From positions 62,001-126,000 of the forward strand of contig NZ_JBBMXV010000001.1 of NCBI RefSeq assembly GCF_037996645.1: 64,000 bases of DNA. The letters run 5' to 3'. Under the pieces are notes generated by a model. It was not told where the DNA came from. It was given only the letters and a program-made list of their open reading frames with translations, and made no database searches. Positions 30,511 to 54,162 of this stretch are shown piece by piece. The translations under genes and the position numbers were made by a program. Every line of letters starts with the position of its first letter. The stretch's first letter is position 1. Source of the DNA: Halalkalicoccus tibetensis. Lineage in GTDB: Archaea > Halobacteriota > Halobacteria > Halobacteriales > Halalkalicoccaceae.

Positions 30511-30562
30511 CGGGGCGACGGACTTTTGCCGTGAAGGCCCGTAGCGCGGGTGGTTGCTGTTC

Positions 30563-30949
30563 ATGAACGGAAACACGCCGTACGCTGGGTCGCCGGGGAC
30601 GACGAACGCCGGACAGCGCATGCCGGAGGAGGTGCCCGACCTCACGGCGGATCAACGCCGGACGCTTCGTGCGGACCTCTCGGCGATCACCCGCCGCGTC
30701 CGGGAGTACCTGCCCGACGAGTACGCCGTCGGCGCCGAGGTCAGCCAGGGTCAGAGCGGCCCCGAGGCGATGGTCGCCGTCCAGCCGCCGATCGGCCACC
30801 CGATCAGTGCCGGCTTTCAGCCCGACCTCGAGAGCGAGGAGTACATCACCGAGAACGACCGCGAGGAGGTCGCCCGCGGGCTCGCCGCGAGCGCCGCCCT
30901 CCAGGTCAAACACGCCATCAACGACGACGTCTCGCCGACCGCGCGGTAG
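30563..30949 (+). CDS. Conserved haloarchaeal protein (DUF5811-like)
   Basis: 128 residues, soluble. N-T-P-Y-A-G-S-P-G-T-T-N-A-G-Q-R-M-P (residues 4-21) is a distinctive conserved N-terminus; the rest includes A-V-Q-P-P-I-G-H-P-I-S-A-G-F. I associate it with DUF5811, from memory. It ends two bases before the JAMM gene, so the two are coupled. A link to desampylation is only suggested by this position. Confidence 0.75.
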   Translation: MNGNTPYAGSPGTTNAGQRMPEEVPDLTADQRRTLRADLSAITRRVREYLPDEYAVGAEVSQGQSGPEAMVAVQPPIGHPISAGFQPDLESEEYITENDREEVARGLAASAALQVKHAINDDVSPTAR

Positions 30950-30951
30950 GC

Positions 30952-31350
30952 GTGGCGCCGCCCCTCTCGTTCTCGCGCGACGCGTACGACTCGCTTCTCG
31001 CCCACGCGCGCGAGGGCGCGCCCGAGGAGATCTGTGGCGTCCTCGGCGGGAGCGATGGGGTCGTCCGCTCGACCCATCGCGTGCCGAACGTCGCCGATAT
31101 CCCGAGAACGCGCTACGAGCTCGACCCCGAAGAACAGTTGACGGCGATCGAGGCCGTCGAATCCGACGGCGAGCTCCTCGGCTTCTACCACTCCCATCCC
31201 GCAGGTCCCCCGGAGCCGAGCGCGACGGACCGCGCACGGGCGACGTGGGCCGACGCCTACTACGTCATCGTTTCGCTGCCGGAGGAGTCGGTGACGGCGT
31301 GGTACTGGACCGGCGAGGAGTTCGTCGCTACGGACGTCCGCGTCGAGTGA
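30952..31350 (+). CDS. JAMM/MPN+ metalloprotease (desampylase family)
   Basis: 132 residues with GTG start. The JAMM motif is complete: Glu26 (E-E-I-C-G-V-L), then His80-x-His82 (Y-H-S-H-P), Ser90 and Asp93 (P-S-A-T-D). Stand-alone archaeal MPN+ proteins of this size include HvJAMM1, which removes SAMP modifiers from target proteins and cleaves after the diglycine. It is coupled to the DUF5811-like gene and lies in the PAN neighbourhood; a SAMP1-type gene is at 53627. Confidence 0.88.
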   Translation: MAPPLSFSRDAYDSLLAHAREGAPEEICGVLGGSDGVVRSTHRVPNVADIPRTRYELDPEEQLTAIEAVESDGELLGFYHSHPAGPPEPSATDRARATWADAYYVIVSLPEESVTAWYWTGEEFVATDVRVE

Positions 31351-53568: not shown

Positions 53569-53626
53569 GCCGGCACGCGCCACGCGACTGCCGGTATTTA
53601 TCCCCCCTGCGTCCGTGCTTCGGATC

Positions 53627-53911
53627 ATGAACCTCGAGCTGCGCTCCTTCGCGACGTTCCGCGAGGCGATGGGGCAGAAGACGATCGAACGCGACTACGA
53701 GGAGGGCGTCACGGTCGGGGAGGTCCTCGCGGACCTCGAATCCGAGTTCGACGGGCTGGAGGGACGGCTGCTCGACGGCGACGGCGAGATCCAGCCCCAG
53801 CTCTCGATCCTCAAGAACGGCCGGGACGTCACCCACGCCCAGGGCCCCGAGACGCCGCTCGAACCGGGCGACACACTGAGTCTCTTCCCGCCGGTCGCCG
53901 GGGGCCAATGA
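53627..53911 (+). CDS. samp1: SAMP1-type ubiquitin-like protein with a C-terminal GGQ
   Basis: 94 residues with a MoaD/beta-grasp fold: L-E-L-R-S-F-A-T-F-R-E-A at residues 3-14, V-T-V-G-E-V-L-A-D-L, I-L-K-N-G-R-D-V, and L-S-L-F-P-P-V-A-G-G-Q at the end. SAMP1 is joined to lysines of target proteins and acts as sulfur carrier through a C-terminal diglycine; here one Gln follows the diglycine (codon CAA before TGA). If translated as written it would need trimming. Its stop overlaps the start of the next gene. Confidence 0.9.
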   Translation: MNLELRSFATFREAMGQKTIERDYEEGVTVGEVLADLESEFDGLEGRLLDGDGEIQPQLSILKNGRDVTHAQGPETPLEPGDTLSLFPPVAGGQ

Positions 53912-54162
53912 GGACCGAACGCTCCTTTCGGGGGATCAGTCAGCGCCTCGCCCGGCACTACCTCTCGAACCTCGGCGGCGAGGTCGAGAGCGACGACCGG
54001 GTCGTCGGCGAGGACTGGGAGGCCGACCTCTCCTCGGCGAAGGTCTCGATCGGCCCCTCGCTCTCGCTGACCGAGGTGACGATCGTCTTCGAGGGCGAGG
54101 AGGAGACGTTGGAACCGCTGATCGAGCAGTTCGCCCAGAAGGCGATGCGCGCGGGCGGATGA
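53908..54162 (+). CDS. 84-residue protein of unknown function coupled to SAMP1, ending in Gly-Gly
   Basis: A small alpha/beta protein: R-R-L-A-type basic helix at the N-terminus (S-Q-R-L-A-R-H-Y-L-S-N-L-G-G), then strands with V-S-I-G-P-S-L-S-L-T-E-V-T-I-V-F and a C-terminal helix ending M-R-A-G-G. The terminal diglycine is unusual next to a ubiquitin-like gene, though the rest does not look like a beta-grasp. It starts in the SAMP1 stop (ATGA) and ends in the next start. Function unknown. Confidence 0.65.
   Translation: MRTERSFRGISQRLARHYLSNLGGEVESDDRVVGEDWEADLSSAKVSIGPSLSLTEVTIVFEGEEETLEPLIEQFAQKAMRAGG

Follow-up and report, generated by a model that had tools for sequence, protein, structure and literature searches.

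SAMP3 and SAMP1 tails after Gly-Gly occur only where JAMM1 is encoded among sampled Halobacteria, suggesting trimming of modifier precursors

Is an archaeal ubiquitin-like modifier that is encoded with a residue after its Gly-Gly (GG) a precursor awaiting a protease, or a copy that has lost conjugation? The question is raised by a gene of Halalkalicoccus tibetensis located in the window analyzed here, that is, the whole stretch of 64,000 nucleotides to which the coordinates of Table 1 refer. In the chemistry of ubiquitin-like proteins an uncleaved tail prevents adenylation of the Gly carboxylate, and eukaryotic ubiquitin precursors and ubiquitin-ribosomal fusions, with a tail or a fused protein after the GG, need a protease. 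These belong to another modifier family and are handled mostly by other proteases, so that the likeness is one of logic only. The GGQ-stop end reported in the initial annotation is real, since frame, codons and translation agree. The translated C-terminus is LFPPVAGGQ, with Gly92 read as GGG (53900-53902) and Gly93 as GGC (53903-53905), and a run of GGGGG precedes the Gln94 codon. The TGA stop (53909-53911) overlaps the ATG of the next gene (53908-53910). With Gln after the GG the encoded product has no free C-terminal Gly-Gly; a free GG would need processing, and we have therefore filed the product as a precursor.

Table 1. Features of the window related to the SAMP3-type gene and its proposed processing
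Feature	Position	Strand	Remarks
SAMP3-type ubiquitin-like modifier precursor	53627..53911	+	94 aa; end FPPVAGG-Q-stop
Invariant Gly92-Gly93 codons	53900..53905	+	presumed cleavage after Gly93
One-residue tail Gln94 (CAA)	53906..53908	+	predicted removal
TATTTAT, archaeal TATA box candidate (leaderless transcript)	53595..53601	+	putative
Downstream protein, 84 aa, beta-alpha-beta4-alpha	53908..54162	+	C-terminal RAGG; start overlaps SAMP3 stop; joined to SAMP3 as a fusion at 10 loci
Third overlapping gene, 119 aa	54159..54518	+	overlaps the second by ATGA; candidate third unit member
JAMM1 (132 aa), a JAMM/MPN+ desampylase proposed to process SAMP precursors	30952..31350	+	HSHPAGPPEPSATD motif intact

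The product carries a beta-grasp ThiS/MoaD domain (PF02597, 55.5 bits; TIGR01687, 66.3 bits) and matches the NCBIfam 'SAMP1' model, which is a broad one, with 101 bits (cut-off 60). The initial annotation had named it SAMP1. However, its best solved relative is PDB 2m19 (E=1.8e-29), which we take to be Haloferax volcanii HVO_2177, while the Haloferax SAMP1 chains 3po0/4hro are matched at only about 1e-11. HVO_2177 is SAMP3 (PMC4500146). Given this nearest relative, and a separate SAMP1 orthologue in the same genome, the product is by sequence a SAMP3-type paralogue and the name SAMP1 was wrong. The Haloferax protein, its presumed ortholog, shares the FPPVAGG end, but the deposited chain stops at GG whereas SAMP3 of Halalkalicoccus has a residue after it.

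The orthologue of Haloferax SAMP1 (C1:317080-317367, outside the window) ends FPPVSGG-SGRQ. With GG-Q in SAMP3, the genes of this genome encode no MoaD-type SAMP with a free GG. We searched the SAMP-like paralogues in the rest of the genome for another SAMP1 with a GG end, which could have served as the active form, and found none. The one SAMP with a free encoded GG is SAMP2, located with a SAMP2 query (matches of 1e-21 or better), its end being LIKGG with no tail. The search also returned a short, N-terminally truncated SAMP1-like frame (C6:106361-106507) that ends PPVSGG-LFSLRI and is perhaps a decayed copy, and a fourth beta-grasp protein (C2:534033-534299) of the arCOG00539 type ending in Cys-Cys (MFCC). 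Beta-grasp proteins with such an end were described for arCOG00539 in 2010 (PMC2948915). The genome has one clear E1-like (ThiF) gene. Two JAMM genes passed the Pfam cut-off; one is located in the window and the second adjoins a cytidylyltransferase-like frame. The former is indeed the JAMM protease that had been pointed out at 30952. It matches the NCBIfam desampylase model NF041370 with 175.7 bits (cut-off 130), and both the catalytic HSH-x7-S-x2-D (HxHx7Sx2D) motif and the upstream Glu are intact; its activity on SAMP bonds in this organism is predicted. Directly upstream of the JAMM1 gene lies one for a DUF5811 protein (30554-30949).

Comparison of the C-termini in related species, proposed in the initial annotation, shows that tails recur in the genus and across Halobacteria, and that the tail is not an oddity of one copy. 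Within Halalkalicoccus the SAMP3 tails read Q, SA, TA, SA, R, Q and R, being of 1-2 residues in all the other orthologues of the genus. Across the class, the invariant GG of SAMP3-type loci is followed by nothing, by 1-10 varied residues, or by 11, 19 or 27. At 10 loci (6 genera, 3 families) SAMP3 is fused in frame to the downstream domain, with 86-136 aa after the GG, and all ten are in genomes that encode JAMM1. The SAMP1 orthologues have similar tails on a smaller scale (SGRQ, SVGR, AR, MR, CRR and others). In one genome of the same genus SAMP1 continues for 113 residues after the GG (SGRRSGRP...), by stop loss or an assembly frameshift. The GG itself was present in 273 of the 273 SAMP1/SAMP3-type loci tallied, tailed or bare, and the tail trait must have changed at least 21 times in the SAMP3 tree and at least 12 times in that of SAMP1. 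Gain and loss of the tail next to an unchanging GG is the pattern predicted for a tail that is removed. We have also considered the tail as a by-product of gene overlap and rejected it: bare genes overlap too, via a GGA codon, tails appear also in SAMP1 and at loci that lack the downstream gene, and the counts gave no clear link (41/56 vs 38/65 adjacent).

Among 391 sampled genomes of the class, JAMM1 was encoded in 295 and not in 96, absence being defined by a single HMM at E<=1e-10. In the sampled genomes, tails were found only where JAMM1 is encoded. Tailed loci amounted to 66/130 for SAMP3 and 24/69 for SAMP1 with JAMM1, a sample that was not random, its SAMP3 loci being mostly those nearest the query, part of its SAMP1 loci having been picked when the missing stop at GG was visible, and one genome (2 loci) being counted as JAMM1-positive without the survey. 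The corresponding values in genomes lacking JAMM1 were 0/17 and 0/55, leaving out of the C-terminus reading 16 of the 96 genomes, all of one genus. Counted by genus, tails were present in 24/48 with JAMM1 vs 0/21 without it (Fisher, 1.8e-5), and permuting the labels within families gave 5e-5. The lineages without JAMM1 account for 60% of the branch length in the SAMP1 tree and for 20% in the SAMP3 tree, and no tail change falls on them, for which even rates would give P=1.8e-5 (SAMP1) and 0.008 (SAMP3). A strict test on independent pairs was short of significance, with too few supported contrasts. Another Prok-JAB protein is kept in all 63 JAMM1-negative genomes checked, yet tails are absent there, so a JAMM gene of any kind is not enough and the link is to JAMM1.

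There was also a preference in the residue that follows the GG. Small residues (S, A, T, C or G) occupied the first tail position in 74 of the 90 tailed loci, and in 42/53 when loci alike in genus, paralogue and residue were counted once. As a control we took the first codon past the stop of bare genes, where the same residues appeared in 55/179, an excess with p of about 4e-10 for the collapsed set. Pro was found in 0/90 tailed loci vs 18/179 control codons. CsRpn11 fails to cut when these positions hold bulky residues (PMC6043591), and a preference for small ones is expected of a sterically tight protease. The Gln of the window and the Arg of some sister species depart from this preference, being larger; Gln is unusual as a first tail residue, a point against trimming by JAMM1, though Q and R appear in several Halalkalicoccus species.

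The restriction of tails to JAMM1-encoding genomes, the invariant GG, the small residues after it and the fused forms, together with one E1, JAMM1 and a bare-GG SAMP2 in the same genome, point to trimming. SAMP3 is very probably made as an inactive precursor and trimmed by JAMM1 before use, and SAMP1 likewise. Translation would yield the inactive SAMP3-GGQ, JAMM1 would hydrolyze the Gly93-Gln94 bond, removing Gln94 and exposing the Gly-Gly carboxylate, and the single E1-like enzyme (UbaA) would then adenylate the freed Gly93 for conjugation or sulfur transfer. The GG-SGRQ end of SAMP1 would be processed by JAMM1 in the same way. We infer the cleavage, the enzyme that performs it here and the use of the mature SAMP3. 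The chemistry of the family, a JAMM cut after the GG of a SAMP, is established, and its use on this SAMP3 is inferred. In a linear SAMP1-MoaE fusion HvJAMM1, of the same protease family, cuts exactly behind the VSGG, and the protease is needed for the function of the fusion in vivo (PMC4443979). That fusion was an artificial one in Haloferax, whereas the haloarchaeal tails and fusions are natural. In another phylum, a SAMP-specific JAMM (CsJAMM) cuts the natural SAMP precursors of Caldiarchaeum subterraneum, as shown in vitro (PMC6043591). Unlike those, most of the haloarchaeal tails are very short, and the tails vary greatly and track JAMM1 across the class. Trimming by the JAMM protease of the window, as put forward in the initial annotation, is thus supported by the JAMM1-restricted tails, the invariant GG and these two precedents.

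Its alternative, that Gln caps the C-terminus of a decayed copy or of one with only a non-covalent function, agrees with the block that an uncleaved tail imposes on adenylation, and SAMP3 of Haloferax is dispensable for molybdenum-cofactor-dependent DMSO respiration (PMC4443979). However, the GG has stayed invariant through at least 21 tail changes, decay does not predict that tails are missing without JAMM1, and with SAMP1 tailed too the whole MoaD-type branch would be dead. We consider this loss of conjugation quite unlikely. Trimming by another protease, be it a carboxypeptidase, the JAMM2-type protein or some other, with an indirect correlation to JAMM1, is also unlikely. A tail of 1-2 residues could be nibbled away, and the second JAMM gene of the genome could contribute. 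Carboxypeptidases would nevertheless leave the fusions of 86-136 aa and the exact restriction to JAMM1 unexplained, and the Prok-JAB gene kept without JAMM1 goes with no tail in 63/63 genomes.

The GGGGG run before the Gln codon might invite a sequencing or assembly error, named in the initial annotation as a refuting case. Against it, GGQ, GGSA, GGTA and GGR ends are seen in independent assemblies of the genus, the one that also ends in GGQ having a different Gly codon, and the conserved next gene keeps its overlap with CAA-TGA, so that an error is very improbable. Actinobacterial Pup also ends in GGQ. A Pup-like use of this end, with Gln deamidated to Glu and conjugated via its side chain, seems nevertheless scarcely conceivable: even within the genus Gln gives way to S, T or R, and the fold family is beta-grasp ThiS/MoaD and not that of Pup.

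Besides trimming by JAMM1, the gene whose start overlaps the SAMP3 stop deserves attention. Its product probably belongs to arCOG06308, a TBP-like, GG-ended family described as exclusive to Halobacteria and adjoining a MoaD-like ubiquitin-like protein (Ubl) (PMC2948915). All 119 copies examined end in R[AS]GG with no tail, and in most loci the gene is adjacent or fused to a MoaD-type Ubl. By sequence, the protein matched nothing significant in Pfam or the PDB. Its predicted fold (mean pLDDT 93) matched residues 87-165 of the MoaD-related Thermus thermophilus protein 1V8C with Z 12.1 and an rmsd of 1.6 over 79 residues (Foldseek, 8e-6), the next-best structural entry having a Z of 8.2. The only other route to 1V8C was a fused query: the haloarchaeal fused protein aligns with it from near the start of the Ubl to the final residue, the central PPVAGG and the terminal GG included. 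In the bacterium, the MoaD-like domain, the PPVAGG and the fold of the downstream protein with its terminal GG form one polypeptide, whereas the window has these parts as two overlapping genes. The match indicates that the downstream domain is not confined to Halobacteria and that the layout of a Ubl with GG followed by a domain with GG exists also in a bacterium. A tentative and rather doubtful extension would be that SAMP3 and the downstream protein derive from an ancient tandem precursor (Ubl-GG, tail or linker, TBP-like domain-GG) from which JAMM1 frees two GG-ended proteins, the second acting as a modifier or sulfur carrier. This second protein is possibly a non-beta-grasp modifier. The product of the third gene, with no Pfam or NCBIfam match, is probably one of the small arCOG06307/06309 neighbours.

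An incomplete search of the literature returned no earlier report of haloarchaeal SAMP tails, and the equally incomplete coverage of that on QbsE/JAMM and DUF1952 gave no report of SAMP tails. The comparative result, tails only with JAMM1, is new, and the maturation is of a known kind in a natural haloarchaeal case. In Haloferax, the model for archaeal sampylation, SAMPs end in GG, and for this reason work on desampylases has dealt mainly with their role as deconjugases. The analysis also names an uncharacterized GG-ended partner protein of SAMP3 which, if the tandem idea were true, would be a modifier or sulfur carrier whose fold is not related to that of ubiquitin. Tail removal would be a natural precursor-processing step that can be tested in a simple ubiquitin-like system. 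The tails suggest that in many haloarchaea the main modifiers are inactive until proteolytic maturation, a need that tracks the presence of JAMM1.
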